Below are positions 5,089-23,231 of a DNA stretch of 25,068 bases, in pieces (position 1 is the first letter of the stretch; the number at the start of each line of letters is the position of its first letter). The notes under the pieces were generated by a model. It saw only the letters and a list, made by a program, of their open reading frames with translations, did not search any database and was not told the origin of the DNA. Source of the DNA: a virus. The stretch is taken from positions 1 through 25,068 of the IMG/VR virus record IMGVR_UViG_3300005935_000126; one strand, 5' to 3'. A program made the position numbers and the translations under genes.

Positions 5089-8000
5089 CTAGCTAGGTAA
5101 TTTATAACTCATTATATTACTTAGTTGTCTTTGTTTATCTATTTCTTGTATTACTTCTCTTGCCAATTTCTTAGCTTCTTGTGACGAAGAGTTACTTGCC
5201 ATTATGTTAATAGAACCCTCTGAAAAAGTGACACTACTTGCTTGGTTATTATTAGTAGTCCCTCCTAGAAATCCTGCTAATTTTTGCGTAAGAGAATCAT
5301 TAACTAATAATTCGTTAGGATGAACATACATACTACCTTCACCTTTAATAAGTCCACCTGTTGCTCCTTGTGTTTGTTCCCAAGGTGCTAAGAGTTGAGA
5401 ACTAGGTTTTCCTGAATATGGTGCTACAGCTTTTGGTACATACCCTGCTGCTTTATCATACATTCCTTTACCTGTTTTAATTTGTTTAGCTGCATTAGAT
5501 GTCCAACTGGATATCCAACTACCTACAGTATTGAATATATCTTTAACTCCTTGAGCTAATGGTGCAAGTGCTCCTACAACTCCGTCAACGATAGCTTTTC
5601 CTACTGCTTTCGCTGCTTTAGTTAGCAAATCAACTGCTCCAAGTATAGCTTTACCTAATAATTCCATTGCTTTATCCATCATTTTCTTTAATTTAGGACC
5701 CCACTTGAGAACAAAGGCTTTAATCTTTCCCCAAAGTTTATCCCAGTTTTCTATTATATATGGAACACCCATTACGATAGCAATTCCTATATCTAGTAAT
5801 AAGCTTCCAAAATCCATTAAGAATTCAGGTGCCCAAGTTGTAAATGCTGTCCATGTGTCATCTAACCACTTTTTAACATCTTCTATAAATTTAGGAACCC
5901 ATTCTACAAAACTTGTCCAAGTATCGTTTAACCAAGTATCTATAGATTCATTCATTTGTGTTTCCCACTCAACCATTTGAGTGTTAGAATCTGCTACACC
6001 TTTAACAAAAGCTTCACCAAACTCAAGACCTTTAGCACCAGCATTTTTTACCCAACCGTCTATGGTGGTATTTAATTCTGTCTCCCACACTATTAATTTA
6101 GCATCTAAATCATTAAAGCCTTTCACAACATCATCAGCAAAATCTAATTCCATGTATCTAAGGAAAAAACCGAGACCTCTTAAAGCGGCATTACCTAGCT
6201 CTTCCATTCCTTTTTCGTATTTTTCTTTGTATGTTGGTAAATCTTCTATAAATGTACCTACTGCTTTACTCGCTATTTTAAAAGCTTTTTTTATCTCGTC
6301 TCTAAAATACCATGCTGTAGCTAACATAGCTAAAACAGCTAAAACCCAACCTATTACTGGGAACGACAACCCTAAACTTACCATTGCAACTCTTAATAGA
6401 TTTGCCGCTAACTTTACACCAGATATAGTATTCTTTATAATGGTAAATATTTTCTTCAAACTCTTAATGGCTACTACTGCATTGTTAATCCATTTAGGTA
6501 TATTTAATAAAAAATTCCCTATCGGTTTAAACACAGGACCACCAAATTTAAATGCTTCTTTTAACAATCCCATAAGTCGTGGTAAATCTTTTAGAAAGTT
6601 ACCTATTGGTGTCATTATACGACCACCAAAGGCAAACGCATCAAAAAAACTCCATACAGCGTGTCTAGCTCCTAAAGCAGCTCCATTTATTGCCCTTAGA
6701 TAACCAGGTAGTCTCATTATAAAATGTCCAATAGGTGTCATAATGGGACCACCAAATCTGAATAAGTTAAGAAAACTTGCAGTGGCTCTAAAAGCTCCTG
6801 CTGACGCACTACCCACTAATTTAATTGCACTCCATAATACCCCTAATCCTCTACCTATGGCTAAGATAACCCCTGCTACTTTTCCTATTAATAATAATGC
6901 TGTAAGACCTACAACTAAATAGGCTACTCCTTCACCAATGGCTTTCCAATCTGCATCAGCTAAAACATCTGATAGATTTCTTAGACTTTTTATTGTTGCA
7001 TCATCTACACCCATCTTTTCAAGAGTATCTGCTAAGGCTTTGATAAATTTTTCTGCTGCTATTCTTGAATTATCCATCCCTTTAACAAAACCTGATACAA
7101 AGTCTTCAAAATTCGCTTTAAGTTTTACGAGACCATTAACGTATTTAGTTAAATCTTCTGCATCTAATGCTTTTTTAGTTTCTTCTGATAATTTACCATC
7201 GCGTACTACTTCAACAAAACCTTGCCACACTTTTTGTACCTTTGTAATTAACAACTTAATATCTTCTAGGTGATATTTCCAAAGATAAAAAACTACTAAC
7301 CCCACTATGGCAAAGGGCAAAAATTTAGAGAATAGTCCTTTAAGACTTATTGAAGCACCTTCAGCACCTAATTTTACTATACCTAAAGATATTGCTAATT
7401 GTGCCATAGATGCTATTGCTAACAGAGTTATACCAAAAAACTTAAAGAAAGTACCTGTTATTATTAACACTATTCCACCTAGTAAAGTAAACTTAGCTAT
7501 AAGTCCAGCTATTTTAGGATTTTCTTTTAACCAATTGGTAACACCTTTAACTATTCTTACAAACCAATAGGCTAAATCTTTAGCAATTACAGCCATTTCT
7601 TTTAGTGCATCAGAGAATACTTTAGAAGCATCCCCATTACTTACAAACTCAGCCCATTCATTCCCTAACATCTGTAAGGTTTTTCTGAACTCTAAAAATA
7701 CACCTGTTTTTCCTACATTCATTATAAATATAGTCCAGTTATCCTCCATATTAGATAAAATCTGATCCCATGTACCAACCATGTTTTTCATTGCATCAGG
7801 GGCTTTATTCTTTGCTAAATCAACAAACGCCTGCATAAAGGCTTCATTACCTTTACCCAATGCATCTTTTAATTTATTCAGTTCTCTCTTAGGTATGTTA
7901 AATCTAGTCTGCAAAGACATGATTTTTTCATCTGCCGCCATGTTTCCAAGGGCGGTAACCATACCTCTAATTCCTCCTCTGGGACCCATATTAAAGGTAG

Positions 8001-8421
8001 AAAGGTCTCCAACATATTGTAAAAAAGGAACCATTTGACCATTAGCGTTTTCAAATTCTTTTGATACATCTATACCTACCCTAGATAATCCCGCCATTGC
8101 AGAAGTAGTATCTTCTACTAAGAAAGGGGTGTCAGCGGCGAATTCGACTCCCCATTTTAATTTTTTATCTGCTAATTCACCAAATGTAGTTACGAAAGAT
8201 GCTCTTAATGTTTCCATTTTAGCACTTGTATCTATAAATGCTTTAAATATTCCCCCAAAAGCACCTACTATTTTCTTACCAGCATTAACCATAGAATTAC
8301 CCACTTGGGTAAAGGCAAAACCTGCTACAGTTAAATTCTGTAAAGCACTTTGAGTTCTATTTATTCCTGCGGTAGCTTGGTCATTCCAAGTTACAACAAA
8401 GTTCAAACCAAACATACTCAT
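5089..8421 (-). CDS. Tape measure protein
   Basis: The largest tail gene, 1110 residues, located just after the tail assembly chaperone. The N-terminus (about 1-300) is alpha-helical and carries the usual TMP segment with ETLRASFVTTFGELADKKLKWG and AADTPFLVEDTTSAMAGL. Hydrophobic, probably membrane-active helices lie near residues 308-348, 366-381, 500-525 and 680-703. Three copies of FGG[PR][IV][MF][TK]PIG[HN]F occur at about 556, 598 and 626, and Trp-rich helical repeats (for example DTWTSFVEWVPKF, DTWTAFTTWAPEF) at about 770-875. The C-terminus has GGLIKGEGSMYVHPNELLVND, a common TMP ending. At roughly 0.15 nm per residue the tail would be about 165 nm (inference). The first ATG is chosen, seven bases after GGAGGT. 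Confidence 0.93.
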   Translation of the reverse strand: MSMFGLNFVVTWNDQATAGINRTQSALQNLTVAGFAFTQVGNSMVNAGKKIVGAFGGIFKAFIDTSAKMETLRASFVTTFGELADKKLKWGVEFAADTPFLVEDTTSAMAGLSRVGIDVSKEFENANGQMVPFLQYVGDLSTFNMGPRGGIRGMVTALGNMAADEKIMSLQTRFNIPKRELNKLKDALGKGNEAFMQAFVDLAKNKAPDAMKNMVGTWDQILSNMEDNWTIFIMNVGKTGVFLEFRKTLQMLGNEWAEFVSNGDASKVFSDALKEMAVIAKDLAYWFVRIVKGVTNWLKENPKIAGLIAKFTLLGGIVLIITGTFFKFFGITLLAIASMAQLAISLGIVKLGAEGASISLKGLFSKFLPFAIVGLVVFYLWKYHLEDIKLLITKVQKVWQGFVEVVRDGKLSEETKKALDAEDLTKYVNGLVKLKANFEDFVSGFVKGMDNSRIAAEKFIKALADTLEKMGVDDATIKSLRNLSDVLADADWKAIGEGVAYLVVGLTALLLIGKVAGVILAIGRGLGVLWSAIKLVGSASAGAFRATASFLNLFRFGGPIMTPIGHFIMRLPGYLRAINGAALGARHAVWSFFDAFAFGGRIMTPIGNFLKDLPRLMGLLKEAFKFGGPVFKPIGNFLLNIPKWINNAVVAIKSLKKIFTIIKNTISGVKLAANLLRVAMVSLGLSFPVIGWVLAVLAMLATAWYFRDEIKKAFKIASKAVGTFIEDLPTYKEKYEKGMEELGNAALRGLGFFLRYMELDFADDVVKGFNDLDAKLIVWETELNTTIDGWVKNAGAKGLEFGEAFVKGVADSNTQMVEWETQMNESIDTWLNDTWTSFVEWVPKFIEDVKKWLDDTWTAFTTWAPEFLMDFGSLLLDIGIAIVMGVPYIIENWDKLWGKIKAFVLKWGPKLKKMMDKAMELLGKAILGAVDLLTKAAKAVGKAIVDGVVGALAPLAQGVKDIFNTVGSWISSWTSNAAKQIKTGKGMYDKAAGYVPKAVAPYSGKPSSQLLAPWEQTQGATGGLIKGEGSMYVHPNELLVNDSLTQKLAGFLGGTTNNNQASSVTFSEGSINIMASNSSSQEAKKLAREVIQEIDKQRQLSNIMSYKLPS

Positions 8422-8443: not shown

Positions 8444-8638
8444 TTACTGTTTGTTTTCTGCATCTTTTTGTGCGAGTATTTTATCCACCCATATTCTTCT
8501 TTCTGACAAAGAAAGACTAAACAAAGTATCACGGCTCCAATGATACACATACGCTATCAAATGCATCTCGTCAATTGCCATACTCCAATTTAGTCTGTTC
8601 TTAAAGTCATTCCCAATAAAGGTGGCTATATAAAATTT
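8444..8638 (-). CDS. Minus-1 frameshift extension of the tail assembly chaperone
   Basis: After the slippery heptamer the -1 frame is open to a TAA at 8444-8446, adding 62 residues (YIATFIGNDF at the start; DEMHLIAYVYHWSRDTLFSL in the middle; SERRIWVDKI near the end). This fills the otherwise empty 204-base gap before the tape measure. The predicted long product has 327 residues. In lambda, P2 and many other tailed phages the second chaperone form is made by frameshifting at just this place and links tube subunits to the tape measure. An internal ATG would give a 45-residue product, but GGAG lies only one base from it, so independent initiation looks poor. Sequence support for the frameshift is strong; efficiency and frame usage are not shown. 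Confidence 0.8.
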   Translation of the reverse strand, partial: KFYIATFIGNDFKNRLNWSMAIDEMHLIAYVYHWSRDTLFSLSLSERRIWVDKILAQKDAENKQ

Positions 8639-9426
8639 ATCGAAGTAAGTGGTGCTACAAAACTATGTCCACATTCATGACAATCTACATCAATTTCTTC
8701 TTTCAATCCAAATTCATTTTCTGCCATCAATTTAAAAAGATAAGTTCTATCTTTAAATGATAATTGTTTCATCATTAAATCTGTTACAGGTCTTCCCTCT
8801 AGCTCTTTAATACATCTCACTAACATCATAGTATTAGCTTGACCCACATTTCTTTGTACTATAGGTGAAAGAACTTCTCTGTCATAACCATTAGGATATG
8901 TTATAGTTCCTTTTTTCAATCTGTTCCCGTCTTTGTCTTTGAAACCTCTAGGTAATTCAAAACTCATTATTCTATTTCCGTTGAATTCTTTTATCTCTAA
9001 GTCCTCAATTTTTATCTGGACTTTCAAATCAGCCTCACAAGCAGGACATTTGTATGCTACATCCATTGTTTCACTCATAGATATTTCCCTTAATTTAATG
9101 GACATATAATCTTGGTCTGCAACAAGTAAATTCTGTATGATACTTTTCCAAGCATCAGCTCTCATGTCTTTTTTGTAAAAAGTGCCTATTCTTATACAAC
9201 ATCTCTCTAAAAGAACTCTTACAATCTTTCCTGCATTTGAACTTATATCTTTTTTAGCAATAGCTTCTTCGTCTGCTCCTGTTATTTCTTCAAGTTCAAA
9301 AGTCTTATGTGTCTTACCTTCTTTATCAAGGTATCCTGCTAACATTTCAAACTCTTCATTCTCGATACTTTCATTTTCCATCATTGCTTTTTCGTTAATT
9401 TCTGCAATTTTTACACTCTCTGACAT
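8626..9426 (-). CDS. Tail assembly chaperone, short (0-frame) form, with zinc-ribbon cysteines
   Basis: The 266-residue protein lies between tail tube and tape measure, where tail assembly chaperones are found. It has an acidic N-terminus (residues 1-60), a helical middle and two cysteine pairs, CPAC at 127-130 and CHEC at 249-252, which could bind zinc. Residues 158-230 (LPRGFKDKDGNRLKKGTITY... IKELEGRPVTDLMM) resemble chaperones of the T4 gp26 / phage baseplate-chaperone group. It terminates with N-F-I one codon after the slippery site. An ATG with GGAGG (gGGAGGaaattatt spacing) gives a clear start. A hairpin lies just upstream, after the tube gene. Confidence 0.82.
   Translation of the reverse strand: MSESVKIAEINEKAMMENESIENEEFEMLAGYLDKEGKTHKTFELEEITGADEEAIAKKDISSNAGKIVRVLLERCCIRIGTFYKKDMRADAWKSIIQNLLVADQDYMSIKLREISMSETMDVAYKCPACEADLKVQIKIEDLEIKEFNGNRIMSFELPRGFKDKDGNRLKKGTITYPNGYDREVLSPIVQRNVGQANTMMLVRCIKELEGRPVTDLMMKQLSFKDRTYLFKLMAENEFGLKEEIDVDCHECGHSFVAPLTSINFI
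8632..8638 (-). promoter_or_regulatory. Slippery heptamer for programmed -1 ribosomal frameshift
   Basis: Read on the minus strand in the chaperone frame the bases are A AAT TTT, which fits X XXY YYZ: both tRNAs can re-pair as AAA and TTT in the -1 frame. The 0-frame stop TAG follows one codon later, and the -1 frame is open for 62 codons. No strong downstream pseudoknot or stem is apparent by eye. Confidence 0.8.
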
Positions 9427-9509: not shown

Positions 9510-9983
9510 TTAGTCTATGTAGTATTCAGCTTCCACAATTATTTTTTCAATTGCAACATCTTCAGACATTGCATCTAAGTCGGAACCTTCCCAACTTTTA
9601 ACCCAAGCTTCACCCAAAGTCCATGTTCTTGCTGTAGTATCTTGCTTGTCAAGCAATTCAATGGTTATGGTTGTTCTTGAAGTTGCACTAGAAAGAGAGT
9701 CCACATATAACTGTTGCAAATCTTTATCTGCGAACATTCCACGTTCTAAGACAATAGGTTCAATTTTCTCTTTACCTTTCATCTTACGAACAGCAGAGTA
9801 ACCACCTTCTGAATATTCTAGGATACCCATTTCTCTTTTTAATCCAGATACTTTCTGAAAACCAATTCCTGTTGCAAGTCCCGGAATTGTAACTCTGAAT
9901 TTATACTTATTCAATGGGTCATTTGCCACGGAACGAACTGCGTGAACTTTCATTATCATCTTGTTAAGTATAGTTTTTAACAT
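9510..9983 (-). CDS. Tail tube protein (T4 gp19-like)
   Basis: The 157-residue product forms the inner tube of the contractile tail. The body is typical of the gp19-like family: DPLNKYKFRVTIPGLATGIGFQKVSGLKREMGILEYSEGG, a K-x-K-G-K-E segment, ERGMFADKDLQQLYVDS and a C-terminal strand pair ending VEAEYYID. Residues 1-15 precede the usual tube fold and are a leader (ILNKMIMKVHA at 5-15) that also begins the scaffold and capsid proteins. The ATG has GGAGG eight bases upstream. It directly follows the sheath gene. Confidence 0.92.
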   Translation of the reverse strand: MLKTILNKMIMKVHAVRSVANDPLNKYKFRVTIPGLATGIGFQKVSGLKREMGILEYSEGGYSAVRKMKGKEKIEPIVLERGMFADKDLQQLYVDSLSSATSRTTITIELLDKQDTTARTWTLGEAWVKSWEGSDLDAMSEDVAIEKIIVEAEYYID

Positions 9984-16076: not shown

Positions 16077-16457
16077 TTAAGTAGTTTCAATAACTACTCC
16101 ATAATCATCGTGTAACTTAGCTGTGCCCCAAATTGCATACCAAGCTAAACCTCTTTCTCTTCCGAAATCTACTACGCCATTATCTCTTAACTCAACAGGG
16201 AGGGCAACAGCTAATCCAAAATAAGCTTCACCGAAAATTACTGACTGAAATACGTCAACTGAACCAACAGCAGCATTTACAAGAGCAGCTAGATATGCAG
16301 GGTCAGCAGCACCAACAGCACCATTACGCATAAGAGTAGTTTCAATAAATCTTGTATCATCAATTTTACCAATCTCACCATTAAACAACTGCTCTGGAGC
16401 ACCATATTTGGAAGCTTCAATCCATGCTGAATCATCTCTTAAACCACGTGACTGATG
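16077..16457 (-). CDS. Major capsid protein, exon 2 (N4-gp56 family)
   Basis: The second exon encodes 126 residues, starting HQSRGLRDDSAWIEASKYGAP and continuing EQLFNGEIGKIDDTRFIETT, a strong signature of N4-gp56 family capsid proteins. The C-terminal GEAYFGLAVALPVELRDNGVVDFGRERGLAWYAIWG is also typical. It has no start codon with a ribosome binding site; a TTG exists only across the intron boundary. Joined to exon 1 at ...CFVHP/HQSRGL the reading frame is continuous and the family pattern H-P-[HDY]-Q is restored. It should not be read as a separate or broken gene. Confidence 0.93.
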   Translation of the reverse strand, partial: HQSRGLRDDSAWIEASKYGAPEQLFNGEIGKIDDTRFIETTLMRNGAVGAADPAYLAALVNAAVGSVDVFQSVIFGEAYFGLAVALPVELRDNGVVDFGRERGLAWYAIWGTAKLHDDYGVVIETT

Positions 16458-17423
16458 CAAACTGTTACTTTCCCTCTTGAGAGGTACTGACCAAGTTTTA
16501 ACTTGGCGGAGAAACTACTTCGTTGAAGGTTGTTCACTCCTTCGAGTTTCTCTCTCGTAATTTCTTACGATGTTCAGACTATATCACTATCCCCTTTTCA
16601 AGGATACTTCAGCCCATAGTCGTTGCAAGGGTATTTGGTTTATCAATGGTATAAGGTCTTTTTATCTTATATCTCATTGACGGAATTATAAAAGGCTCAA
16701 TAATATTCAAAAACTTTTGTGTAAACTCAGTACCGATATAAATCTTAATTCTCTGCTTCATAGATTTACTATTTTTCTTTTTAGATATTATTCCAAACTT
16801 TATGTCTAGCATATCTATTAGTAAATCCACTTCACTTTCCTTGTACCTATCTGTGGATAATATTATTACTGAATTTCTTGTTTTCAGTCTAGGTGTTATG
16901 CTTACATACTCACAACCGCCATCATCCATAAACCAATAGGCTAAGCTTCTCTCGGTAACTAAATCTACTACATTATGAGGAACTCCTCTTACATTCCCAC
17001 TCCAAAACATTGAAAGTATTTCTTTTAAATTACTAGAAGATAGTGTGTTAAAATACCATACTGGATATTTTCTATCTTTCTCTTTAGGTGGAGAACCACA
17101 TAAATTTTTAAATATTTTATATTTATGTGTTACATAGTTTTTTTGTTTCAAGCAATGAGTAATTTGAAACCTTGTACTTGTACTTGAAACATTATGTATT
17201 GCTATATCACCTAAACAACACCCTATCAATACTTCTTTCTGTAATTCATTCATATATTTTCTCCTATCTTGTTTTATATAAGAGTAACATATGTTCAATG
17301 TTTTATCTAGTGTCATCAACCTTCTCTCAGGATTGGCGTATATACGTGATTTGATATACTTAGCGTCCCCTGATTTCGCCAAAATTATTCCTTCACGACT
17401 TACGCCGCAATGCCCCCACTATA
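16458..17423 (-). mobile_element. Group I self-splicing intron in the capsid gene (966 nt), carrying a homing endonuclease
   Basis: Exon 1 ends ...GTTCACCCT and the intron begins TATAGTGGGGGC, so CCCU can pair with GGGG (terminal U-G wobble) as P1 over a 6-base loop. The Q-like element CCAATCCTGAG lies near 17325-17336. GACTAT (16616-16621) and ATAGTC (16577-16582, within GATATAGTCTGAACA) can pair as P7 and match R and S element sequences. The 3' part has hairpins typical of P9 (CGTAA-GAAA-TTACG, a long GAGAAACT/AGTTTCTC stem, CCAAGT-TAAA-ACTTGG, CCTC-TCAA-GAGG), and the intron ends in G at 16458. Removing it joins the capsid exons exactly in phase. The splice sites are predicted, not measured. 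Confidence 0.92.
16609..17253 (-). CDS. LAGLIDADG homing endonuclease encoded in the intron
   Basis: The 214-residue protein should cut intron-less capsid alleles and so spread the intron. Two LAGLIDADG motifs are visible: VLIGCCLGDIAI at residues 8-19 (acidic Asp16) and LAYWFMDDGG at 104-113 (Asp110/111). The second has the form common in the LAGLIDADG group of intron-encoded DNA endonucleases, with downstream ILSTDRYKESEVDLLIDML and PFIIPSMRYKI. Start: ATG at 17251-17253 has AGGAG seven bases upstream, and the frame upstream is open but part of the intron core. The last codons overlap the 5' strand of P7. It appears intact. Confidence 0.9.
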   Translation of the reverse strand: MNELQKEVLIGCCLGDIAIHNVSSTSTRFQITHCLKQKNYVTHKYKIFKNLCGSPPKEKDRKYPVWYFNTLSSSNLKEILSMFWSGNVRGVPHNVVDLVTERSLAYWFMDDGGCEYVSITPRLKTRNSVIILSTDRYKESEVDLLIDMLDIKFGIISKKKNSKSMKQRIKIYIGTEFTQKFLNIIEPFIIPSMRYKIKRPYTIDKPNTLATTMG

Positions 17424-18083
17424 AGGGTGAACAAAACAAATCCAGAACCCAAAATTGAATTTTGTTGCATTGTTTGTAGCAAGAACTTCAATAGCATCTT
17501 TAACAGTGGACACTTTAAAAGTACAAGTAACATCCAATGTTGCTCTTGAAGAAATAACTGTTCCTGTGCTTGTTTTTGCATAAACAACATTTGTACCTGT
17601 CAATGCAACATCCCTTAAATCAGTATCAAGAACTAAAGCGTAATCCCTTGCAAGTAATATTGCTGCAGAACCCATAACACTATCAAAAGAAGCAACGATT
17701 AACAACTGTGAAACTGTAACTCCATTACCCTTTTCAAGAACAGTGATAGGTGTCAAGCTACCGCTTAAAGCTTTAGTCTCAATACGAGTTCCCTCTGTTA
17801 ATGTTCCACCCTGTGTAAGATTGTCATACACAAGCATATTAATTGTAAGTCCAGGCTCTACACCTAGCTCAGTTTTAATATCTGTGAATTGAAGAAATCT
17901 CATAATAGGTAATGCCTGAAACTCAATTTCTTTCGAGTAAACTGTCTTAACGGACTCACTGAACGTACCTGCTGTATGACCATCCAAAGCACCTGATACA
18001 CCATCAGTAGTAGTCATAAAACTTGTTGCGTGAGCCTTCATGATAAATTTACTGAATATTGAATTTAAAAATCTTATTTTCAT
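17424..18083 (-). CDS. Major capsid protein, exon 1 (N4-gp56 family)
   Basis: Exon 1 gives 220 residues of the N4-gp56-type capsid protein, and the spliced product would have about 346. The leader IFSKFIMKAHA occupies residues 9-19. The body follows with VYSKEIEFQALPIMRFLQFTDIKTELGVEPG, TINMLVYDNLTQGGTLTEGTRIETKALS, LLARDYALVLDTDLRDVALTGTNVVYA and NNATKFNFGFWICFVHP. Two ATGs lie close together. The one at 18087-18089 abuts GGAGGT with no spacing, while the one at 18081-18083 has six bases, so the latter is chosen. Read unspliced, the frame runs only a few codons into the intron and stops. Confidence 0.92.
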
Positions 18084-18105
18084 CTTCATACCTCCAATTT
18101 AATAT

Positions 18106-18909
18106 TTACTTTCCCATGCCTATCTTCTTTCTGAATTCGGCATATTCTTCTCTACTCATATCTTTTATATCTTGAGGCTTTATATTTTTTAAATCCATTT
18201 TAGATGTACTTACATTTGCTGGAGGAACTTTTGTTGGAGGAACTTTTCCTGCTTTTCCCACTATGTCTGTATATCTGGTTTTTGCAATTACTATAGAAGC
18301 ATCAATTTCTTCCTTGGTTAATCCCATTACAAGTTCAGGAATTAATGTCTCTCCCTCTTCACGAAGTTTAGTTTCTCGGTATAACTTAATTTCATATTCA
18401 GATTTTATTTTATCTTCAATAGCTGTTACATCTGCCGTATTTTTTGTTGCGGTTTCTTCTGCAATTTTAAGTTTACCTGTGAGAGCTTCAACATCTTTAA
18501 GAAGTTTAGTAACCTGTTCTGACTCAGATTTAGTTGAACCGGAGCGTACATCTTTTAACTGAGTTTCTAAACTAGCAACTAGAATTTCCTTCTCTTGAAT
18601 TTTAATCAAGTTCTGGTTATTCTTATCAGTCATTTCCTGTATTTTCCCTTTCAACTCTGTTAGTTGTGGGTAGAGCTTATTCTTTTCCTCAGTTCTTGCT
18701 TTTGCAATTAAATCTTCATAGTTTACACTAATTGGCGGTGGTTCAGTACCTGCAGGTGGTGTTACTGGTGGTACAACTGGCGGTACTACTGGCGGTACTA
18801 CTGGCACAACTGGTGGTGTTCCCCCTACTTCTTCTGCATAAACTTTTAAAATTAATTTCCCGATAATACCTTTGATAGTTTTTCCGTTTAATAGACATGA
18901 TTTCTTCAT
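18106..18909 (-). CDS. Scaffold-like capsid assembly protein
   Basis: A 267-residue protein between portal and capsid genes, where phage scaffolds are found. Residues 15-25 (IIGKLILKVYA) are the leader shared with capsid and tube. Residues 30-57 are a Pro/Val-rich linker with repeated PPVV. Residues 60-165 are charged and predicted coiled coil by eye (LTELKGKIQEMTDKNNQN, VTKLLKDVEALTGKLKIAEE). A short basic C-terminal segment ends MSREEYAEFRKKIGMGK, which fits the capsid-binding tail of scaffolds. The start ATG has AGGAGGT eleven bases upstream, rather far. It is not similar to a protease. Confidence 0.82.
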   Translation of the reverse strand: MKKSCLLNGKTIKGIIGKLILKVYAEEVGGTPPVVPVVPPVVPPVVPPVTPPAGTEPPPISVNYEDLIAKARTEEKNKLYPQLTELKGKIQEMTDKNNQNLIKIQEKEILVASLETQLKDVRSGSTKSESEQVTKLLKDVEALTGKLKIAEETATKNTADVTAIEDKIKSEYEIKLYRETKLREEGETLIPELVMGLTKEEIDASIVIAKTRYTDIVGKAGKVPPTKVPPANVSTSKMDLKNIKPQDIKDMSREEYAEFRKKIGMGK

Positions 18910-20513: not shown

Positions 20514-23231
20514 CTACCTCCGTTTCGCTGTTATTTTATTTCTTGAAGTATAAAATCTACTTTGTTTCTTTTTCATTATTATATTTTCCTTCTCAGTCTC
20601 AACTACTACTGTATCAGTTTGGTCTTTTGTTCCATACACAGCTAAAGCATAACTGTCTGGATAATCGTCATGAGCTCCTCTGTTTGGTGGGTGACAAACT
20701 TGCATTACTGCGCCTTTATAGTTCTTCTGCAAATCTCCCATCTGGCTTAGAAATTGTGTGTACTCTCTGGTTCTTACTGTCATTTCTCCTCTTGGGAACA
20801 TTGACCTTTTGGACTTAATTTCTCCATCTAAATACTTGTACATATCAGACTTAGATTGAGTACTAAACACAAAAGGAATTACCTCAAAAGGAACATTGGC
20901 TTTAAACCTATCTGCAAGTGAAGCTTCTTTTGTCGAGTCAATTACTAACCTTACAATATTAAAGTTTTTGAAGAAATCCATGCATATATGATATTGTGCT
21001 TCATAATCTTCACCGAAAATCTCTTTCCAACAAACAATATCTGTATAATAGGCTTTGAAGATTTCCATCTCATTTGTCTCTTCATTGTACCGACCTTCAT
21101 CTATGACAGGGTTATCCCAGTCTACTTTAACAACTGTTATAATTGTACTATCTGTTTTAGCTGCAACATCTATACCTACTACATGGCTATTTAGTCTATT
21201 ATATTCTTCTAATTCTTTCGTTGGGTCACCATTATCTCGTTCATATCTTAGAACATCATCTATGAAAGAACCTCTTTCAAACAACCATTCTAGTTTGTAA
21301 GACATTCTAAACTCATCTGAATGTTCCCCATATCTGAACTTCTCTCCCTCTATGTATTTAGCATATGAAGGATTATATTTACACCCTATTTTGTAATCAA
21401 ACTCATAATGATTCTTTAAGTGTAACTGTCCATTGTCAAAGAACTTTTTATTTCTATCGATTGAATTAAAGAAGTCGCCCTTATAGGTTGAAGAAGTTCC
21501 TATCTTAGCTATACTTGCATTATAAAATGCTCCCATAGGCATGATGCTGTTAGAACTAATCATGTTATTTGCTATAAAATTTCTTCCCTCAGTTTTTAAA
21601 CAATAAGTATGCTTAACTCCCGAACTGACACAAGAAGTAACTTTATAAAATCTTATATTATTACTATAATGTTTAGATTTATTCCTAGTAACTCTATTTT
21701 GTATTTTATTAAGTGCTTCATCTAATAAATGTTGTTTTTTAAACAATTTAATATTATTCCCAAACCTGTTTAAATCTAAAACTGATTTTAGGGTTATTAT
21801 GTGTATTATTTTTGCATTAATACTTAATCCTTTGTTATTTTCTCTACTAAACATAGTAGTATGTATCCCAAATTTTAAGTATACATCCTTTAACTGTTTT
21901 ACAAGTTTCTCTGATATATTTGCAAATGATATATGAGGTTTATTGTAGCAATCTGCAACACAACCATCAGTCTCTATCAATCCCTCAATAACCCCTGTAT
22001 AGAAAGATTTTGAGTACAATTTATCAGGTAAACATTTATTAACACCTGTTACATTGTGCATTCCTATTTCTCTAAACCACACTGTAAGTGGGTTACTGTT
22101 TTTACAATTTGTAGGTGTAGAAAAACAAACTTCCTGCATACCATTGCTTGGATTGTAATTACACTCTGTCATATATACATTTTCACCAAAAACTTTTTTA
22201 ATAATTTCTATAAGTCTTTTATTTGTTGATAAATCACCTATAAAATGAGGTGTTCCTACTAAACAACCATCACCTAAAAAATAACCTAGTATCAAACCTT
22301 TTTCATAATCATTTTCTTGTTCTTGTGCAAAATAAGGTAAAATATCAGGAACTCCAATCCTTAAAGAAGAATATTTATCGAAACTATCTATTATATCTTT
22401 TACAGTCCTGAATTTAGGTCCTCCTTTTTTGGTATTTTTACTATAGGTGTAAAATTGGTGATTTAAAGTGGCTTCAATAGTATCTCCATTGTTCAGTTTT
22501 AACTTGTACACTTCTTGCTTTCCATTATCGTAAAACTCTACGGGAGTTTTAGAAGTAAGATAATTCATACTAGAATTAAAAAGTACTACTTCACCCTTTT
22601 TCTGTTTAACTAAAGTTTCAATATCTAAATATTCTCCGTTACTCATAAGAATTCTAGTATCATAAGTTAAGCATTTCTTAATCTTAAAGTCAGATACATC
22701 CTGGGCTTCTTCTATTATAATAAGCTTTAAACTTTCACCCTCAATATTACTATTTTCGGATGCAGATAATGAAGTTGCCCAAGATCCATTTGACAAAGAA
22801 CAAGTCTGACCATTACTCGTTGTAAAATACAAATTAAATTCGGGGTCTTGTAATATTTTCTTACACGTCTTACTCTGTAGCCTTGCTCTTATTCGATTGA
22901 AGGTAATTTGTGATTGTCTTAATGAAGGAGCGAATATACCTACCCACACACCATCTTCAAATCGCATAATTCTTTTATCTTCTTTAAACATTGGCAAAGT
23001 TGCAAGGTAGGGAAGGAATATCATTACCCCACCTACAGTAACAGCAACTGTTTCCGATTTTCCTATTTGCCTTGAGAACAAGGCTGTCAATTCTTCACCA
23101 TCATTTTCTAGTAAAGACCTTATTAATCTTTTACTAAACTGCTCTTGGTAAAGAAACAACTTTATCCCTGAATACATAGCACAAAAATCATATACTACAT
23201 TGGTTAATTCTGTAATTTTCATTAACGCCAT
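20514..23231 (-). CDS. Terminase large subunit with embedded intein (905-residue precursor, about 530 residues after splicing)
   Basis: The packaging motor has a variant Walker A (SRQIGKSET, residues 53-61), Walker B (LIIIEEAQDV, about 170-179), and the coupling motif GTSS (578-581) right after the intein. The RNase H-like nuclease domain has D688 (VVGIDVAAKTD), D765 (RLVIDSTKEA) and D855/D856/D859 (HDDYPDS). Residues 187-561 form the intein, listed separately. Without it 530 residues remain, normal for TerL. The first ATG is used, five bases after GAGGT. No small terminase subunit is present in the window; it is expected upstream, beyond the right edge. Confidence 0.95.
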   Translation of the reverse strand: MALMKITELTNVVYDFCAMYSGIKLFLYQEQFSKRLIRSLLENDGEELTALFSRQIGKSETVAVTVGGVMIFLPYLATLPMFKEDKRIMRFEDGVWVGIFAPSLRQSQITFNRIRARLQSKTCKKILQDPEFNLYFTTSNGQTCSLSNGSWATSLSASENSNIEGESLKLIIIEEAQDVSDFKIKKCLTYDTRILMSNGEYLDIETLVKQKKGEVVLFNSSMNYLTSKTPVEFYDNGKQEVYKLKLNNGDTIEATLNHQFYTYSKNTKKGGPKFRTVKDIIDSFDKYSSLRIGVPDILPYFAQEQENDYEKGLILGYFLGDGCLVGTPHFIGDLSTNKRLIEIIKKVFGENVYMTECNYNPSNGMQEVCFSTPTNCKNSNPLTVWFREIGMHNVTGVNKCLPDKLYSKSFYTGVIEGLIETDGCVADCYNKPHISFANISEKLVKQLKDVYLKFGIHTTMFSRENNKGLSINAKIIHIITLKSVLDLNRFGNNIKLFKKQHLLDEALNKIQNRVTRNKSKHYSNNIRFYKVTSCVSSGVKHTYCLKTEGRNFIANNMISSNSIMPMGAFYNASIAKIGTSSTYKGDFFNSIDRNKKFFDNGQLHLKNHYEFDYKIGCKYNPSYAKYIEGEKFRYGEHSDEFRMSYKLEWLFERGSFIDDVLRYERDNGDPTKELEEYNRLNSHVVGIDVAAKTDSTIITVVKVDWDNPVIDEGRYNEETNEMEIFKAYYTDIVCWKEIFGEDYEAQYHICMDFFKNFNIVRLVIDSTKEASLADRFKANVPFEVIPFVFSTQSKSDMYKYLDGEIKSKRSMFPRGEMTVRTREYTQFLSQMGDLQKNYKGAVMQVCHPPNRGAHDDYPDSYALAVYGTKDQTDTVVVETEKENIIMKKKQSRFYTSRNKITAKRR
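21549..22673 (-). mobile_element. Intein with LAGLIDADG homing endonuclease inside terminase
   Basis: The 375-residue element starts with Cys187 (CLTYDTRILMSNGEYLDIE, block A) and ends with Asn561, followed by Ser562 as the +1 nucleophile. Block B is TIEATLNHQF (251-260), with the TxxH histidine at 258. LAGLIDADG motifs are LILGYFLGDG (313-322) and GVIEGLIETDG (413-423). Block F/G is NFIANNMISSN. The residue before the terminal Asn is Ser instead of the usual His, an uncommon variant that can slow splicing but does not exclude it. Insertion is between Walker B and the coupling motif, a functionally essential place. Endonuclease and splice blocks look intact. Confidence 0.93.

Follow-up and report, generated by a model that had tools for sequence, protein, structure and literature searches.

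We analysed a stretch of viral DNA of 25,068 bases, an IMG/VR record that is a single metagenomic virus fragment; the whole stretch is called the window below. Phage structural genes were carried on the minus strand, and sheath, tail tube, chaperone and baseplate proteins were recognised by Pfam. The features around the chaperone gene were as follows.

9510..9983, minus strand: tail tube protein, upstream neighbour (Phage_T4_gp19, 110 bits, E 7.5e-32)
8626..9426, minus strand: 0-frame tail assembly chaperone, predicted short form, 266 aa (Pfam and PHROG matches)
8632..8638, minus strand: candidate slippery heptamer A_AAT_TTT, in phase, one codon (ATA) ahead of the 0-frame stop
8626..8628, minus strand: 0-frame stop TAG (read from the sequence)
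8444..8632, minus strand: -1 extension of 62 codons plus TAA (8444-8446), gpE'/DUF6760-like domain
5089..8421, minus strand: putative tape measure protein, 1110 aa, downstream neighbour (from position and length; TMP_3 27.7 bits, below the cut-off of 41)

The product of 8626-9426 was identified from its matches as a T4 gp26/TAC_7-like tail chaperone. Residues 87-255 corresponded to T4_baseplate (PF12322; 48.6 bits, above the cut-off of 24.5), the N-terminus gave a weak Phage_TAC_7 match below the cut-off (19.8 against 25 bits), and the protein matched phrog_150 with an E value of 3e-14. The gene order was tube, chaperone, tape measure. The first-pass annotation had pointed to the chaperone-to-tape-measure position as one where such frameshifts are found, and the gene does lie there, with the gp19 tube upstream and the 1110-aa tape measure-like protein downstream.

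The 3' end of the chaperone gene reads ...ACT TCG ATA AAT TTT ATA TAG. The heptamer was in phase and was followed by ATA and TAG, as had been annotated. A -1 slip at A_AAT_TTT would read ...TSINF/YIATFIGNDF... (slash at the junction) and give a fusion of 327 residues. The 62-residue extension reached as far as had been claimed, since its TAA at 8444-8446 sat just ahead of AAGGAGG, the Shine-Dalgarno of the tape measure gene, which was strong (duplex of -12.6 kcal/mol). However, the description of the -1 frame as open from well before the heptamer was overstated, because it opened only at 8662, approximately 8 codons upstream. The extension had also been called a well-formed helical segment. 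This was right from about residue 20, where AlphaFold2 predicted helices with pLDDT 84-94, but the part before it was of low confidence (54-56). A PDB fold search with the extension gave no significant match. No stimulatory RNA structure was found in the 80 nt downstream of the heptamer (z = 0.21), in agreement with the first-pass annotation, and an Rfam search of the window gave no match. Some tailed phages frameshift without a stimulatory structure (review PMC5009743).

The heptamer on its own was weak evidence. Of all codon positions in the AT-rich record, 0.75% held an in-phase X_XXY_YYZ heptamer, and the chance of one in the 11-codon overlap was about 8%. When the last 12 residues were fixed and their codons were resampled from the record, 43% of the draws held a heptamer. 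Among dinucleotide shuffles, 1.5% had one frame or another open for 60 codons or more. Since the heptamer alone was no more than chance would give (8%; 43%), the case rests on the comparison with relatives.

Several other features of the window were noticed. In the gene before the capsid (18106-18909, minus strand), an in-phase GGGAAAG, which is a lambda-type heptamer, stood just ahead of the stop, probably by chance. Similar leaders were seen on the minus-strand starts at 9983, 18089 and 18909, belonging to the tail tube, capsid-like and scaffold/protease-like proteins and ending in ..NKMIMKVHA, ..SKFIMKAHA and ..GKLILKVYA. This common N-terminal leader is possibly a cleaved propeptide. The tube of one related record (L137) had a similar leader (..KKMFMTTHA), and that of another (L132) started just past that point without a leader. 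The capsid-like gene at 16077-18089 was apparently split into an ORF at 17400-18089, a LAGLIDADG-like ORF at 16609-17382 and an ORF at 16077-16460. This looked like an intron or a homing-endonuclease insertion, and Rfam at its thresholds gave no intron there. By eye, the terminase-like protein at 20514-23231 seemed to hold an intein-like insert (CLTYDTRILMSNGEYL...).

Scans of viral contigs with the single chaperone, extension or tail tube protein found nothing. Relatives were found by alignment-based scans, in which the window protein was aligned with Bacillota and megaphage relatives. These gave four further phage lineages with 32-49% identity, together with more distant loci. The nearest lineage (L132, 49% identity, five records) ended with ACA AAT TTT ATC TAA, and the next (L136, 41% identity, two records) with ACA AAT TTT ATA TAA. 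In both, the spacing from heptamer to stop was that of the window, and a 76-codon -1 extension followed, 44-46% identical to that of the window. In L140 (32% identity) the site read TCA AAT TTT TTC, and in L139 (33% identity) it read GCG GAT TTT TTC; both had a -1 extension, and an overlapping T_TTT_TTC was another possible slip site in these two. Conservation of the heptamer and of the -1 frame in relatives had been named beforehand as a check on the frameshift. A_AAT_TTT and the -1 ORF were kept in three other phage lineages (L132, L136, L140), and the fourth (L139) had G_GAT_TTT with the -1 frame. The conserved frame began right at the slip site. A -1 ORF was also present in LR756511 (L004). 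The RNA fold was not conserved: L132 alone folded well (z -2.8). For the part of the shifted frame past the 0-frame stop, dN/dS was 0.03-0.21 in the -1 and +1 relatives with measurable dS, and it was 0 in one pair of relatives with identical proteins. This meant that the shifted frame was under purifying selection in the measurable relatives; dS was saturated when the window was compared with its closest relatives.

We then considered what the extension is. Its Pfam matches were below the cut-offs, with 19.7 bits against 23 for P2 GpE (PF06528, E 5.9e-4) and 19.0 bits against 27 for DUF6760 (PF20546). Among the phage relatives, L140 passed the DUF6760 cut-off with 30.8 bits and L139, L136 and L132 failed. 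The best matches in phage records were the frameshift extensions of Eganvirus chaperones (186, EtG, PSP3). With tblastn the identity to the Eganvirus gpE' was 35-37% over 62 residues (best E 6e-4, at 37%), and the alignment ran from the slip site on. Profile comparison by hhalign gave probabilities of 98.1% for the DUF6760 set, 95.9% for the gpE' set and 96.5% for the set of +1 relatives described below, while 120 column-shuffled controls all stayed at or below 2.9%. By these comparisons the extension is a homologue of the gpE' frameshift extension known from P2-like phages and of the uncharacterised DUF6760.

In a related clade, the homologous domain was reached in the +1 frame (L003, L007-L009, representatives of L010-L088, L090-L097). 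The clade consisted of the Streptomyces phages BRock, LuckySocke, GiJojo and pSt2308, 34 distinct viral contig groups and eight bacterial genome loci; the last came from a scan of genome contigs, in which all eight were +1. In all 46 distinct +1 loci the aligned Phe codon was TTT and the next base C, mostly as TTT CGN, and this codon aligned with the TTT of the window. TTT was the minor Phe codon (12-35%) in the 12 Streptomyces-phage and bacterial +1 loci. As read from the alignment, this is a UUU_C site like that of PA-X, although its novelty is not proven. The UUU_CGU type of +1 site is known from influenza PA-X (PMC3498833), and TTT-CGC was proposed as a +1 site in the HF1-group haloviruses (PMC7230728). 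Both have the motif type of the sister clade. They are an animal virus and archaeal viruses that shift +1, whereas the window would shift -1; the likeness is one of motif type.

Bacterial loci were reached by genome searches, with a first chaperone alignment and with Pfam DUF6760. In the Clostridia-class loci, a -1 ORF with DUF6760 overlapped a chaperone ORF, which was about 122-171 residues long, and the domain was present in 14 of the 14 genomes that had the chaperone profile (391 Clostridia-class genomes sampled). Like the window, many Clostridia loci used A_AAU_UUU; other members, including most Actinomycetota loci, used G_GGG_GAA (L129 and L155-L175, in which the domain lay mostly in -1). 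In four Actinomycetota loci (L167, L170, L171, L174), the DUF6760 ORF started with an ATG overlapping the 0-frame TGA (ATGA), which suggests coupled reinitiation instead of frameshifting. One Clostridia-class locus (L129, 9658-10032 with the overlapping -1 ORF) contained Pvc16_N, DUF4280, sheath, gp19 tube, chaperone/DUF6760, CIS_tube and gp25. Its gene content identifies it as a contractile injection system operon, and no capsid genes were present in the stretch read. With the Clostridia chaperone alignment as query, just three viral loci were obtained, and phage records searched with one Clostridia chaperone gave no match. A literature search of incomplete coverage found no paper mentioning DUF6760. 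The family looks like a chaperone extension, and in bacterial loci it is mostly encoded out of frame. This was less expected, and its novelty is not proven.

The base preceding the AAT or GAT was tested in 13 phage and bacterial loci, which had been picked for AAT or GAT before TTT. In 12 of the 13 this wobble base agreed with the codon after it (A where AAT followed, G where GAT followed), though the amino acid at that position varied. The expected frequency of a matching base was 0.10-0.54 per locus, and no combined probability was calculated because the loci were not fully independent.

The -1 ORF could also be a separate small gene, begun at an internal start or by termination-reinitiation, whose product would be a free gpE'-like protein without fusion. 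ATGs do lie inside the -1 ORF at 8579-8581 and 8564-8566, several P2-like phages are annotated with the domain as its own ORF, and the ATGA overlap of the four Actinomycetota loci would fit such a gene. However, the anti-SD duplexes were -0.6 kcal/mol at 8579-8581 and -5.9 kcal/mol at 8564-8566, compared with values of -7 to -12.6 at most of the record's true starts, and L132, L136, L139 and L140 had no conserved start preceded by a good Shine-Dalgarno. Independent initiation at an internal ATG was disfavoured because of these weak duplexes and the lack of a conserved good start in the phage relatives. In addition, a separate gene would not need a conserved slip heptamer with a silent wobble base, and the conserved frame begins exactly at the slip site. 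We regard this reading as improbable.

Slippage of the polymerase at the A3T4 run, giving an mRNA subpopulation with an indel that fuses both frames, seems more improbable still. The run is wholly A and T, but stretches of 3 and 4 bases are short for a polymerase to slip on, and in relatives the corresponding place is taken by G_GGG_GAA and other sites. A sequencing error or a decayed gene, with one continuous ORF as the true gene, might be suspected in a single metagenomic fragment. It was effectively excluded because other records have the same arrangement: L132-L135/L138 and L136/L137 share the 0-frame stop and the -1 continuation, and so do many bacterial loci. Readthrough of the TAG was rejected because the conserved ORF lies in -1, not in frame 0.

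With high confidence, we read the locus as a chaperone gene in which a programmed -1 ribosomal frameshift would make a short and a long form. Near the end of this gene, a backward slip of one base by some ribosomes is very probable and would add the conserved 62-residue tail. The sequences show the site and the open frame, their conservation, and the homology of the extension to the P2-type one, while the slippage, its tRNA mechanics, its rate and the roles of the two forms are inferred as follows. Most ribosomes would terminate at the TAG and give the 266-residue chaperone. A fraction would slip by -1 with tRNA-Asn and tRNA-Phe on A_AAU_UUU, re-pairing on AAA and UUU, and would read 62 more codons, giving a long form of 327 residues that carries a gpE'-like helical domain. 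If the two forms work as lambda G and GT do, the tape measure protein would be bound by the short form, the commoner of the two, and tail tube subunits would be brought to it by the rarer long form.

A frameshift of this sort belongs to a well-known kind, represented by lambda G/GT and P2 E/E+E'. Lambda is a siphophage, and its likeness to the window is one of arrangement; its slip site is G_GGA_AAG, unlike the A_AAT_TTT of the window. The lambda pair gpG/gpGT consists of a short chaperone and a frameshift-extended long one, with the tape measure gene directly after them (PMC5009743), as is proposed for the window. The P2 family (P2, 186, EtG, PSP3; Peduoviridae) is closer, with a myovirus chaperone between tube and tape measure, a -1 frameshift and the homologous gpE' extension. 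P2 shifts -1 at TTTTTTG, with no hairpin reported, and its gpE has 91 aa (PMC3091744), in contrast to the A_AAT_TTT and the 266-aa gp26-like short form of the window. The distance from slip to stop is 8 codons in the P2 family and 1-2 here. The DUF6760 loci of Clostridia and Actinomycetota share the homologous domain in a -1 ORF overlapping the chaperone ORF, but their chaperones are far shorter than that of the window. In the Vandenendeviridae/Andersonviridae (Pseudomonas phage Adele), a conserved -1 extension of the chaperone was inferred by comparison (PMC12846349). It is likened to the window by arrangement, as a myovirus chaperone with a -1 extension, and its motif GTTTTT differs. The gp26-like chaperone was a mildly unexpected setting for a frameshift, because T4 is said to lack a conserved frameshift (review PMC5009743) and a title cited in PMC12846349 proposes another mechanism for T4-like chaperones.

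It seems reasonably probable that the P2 gpE', DUF6760 and the extension of the window are one module, serving as the long-isoform domain in P2-like phages, gp26-like phages and non-phage contractile injection systems. The module would normally lie out of frame and be reached by frameshifting, and the direction would have switched between -1 (A_AAU_UUU, G_GGG_GAA) and +1 (UUU_C) at an aligned position. If this is true, selection would act on the ratio of the products and not on the direction in which ribosomes slip. The locus would add to the tail-chaperone frameshift class a divergent phage group whose chaperone is gp26-like. For DUF6760 the hypothesis of function is that it forms the long, frameshift-encoded version of a tube chaperone in injection systems, and culturable bacteria would allow a test of this. 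The aligned position, at which some lineages shift by -1 and others by +1, would be a natural experiment on the evolution of frameshift direction.
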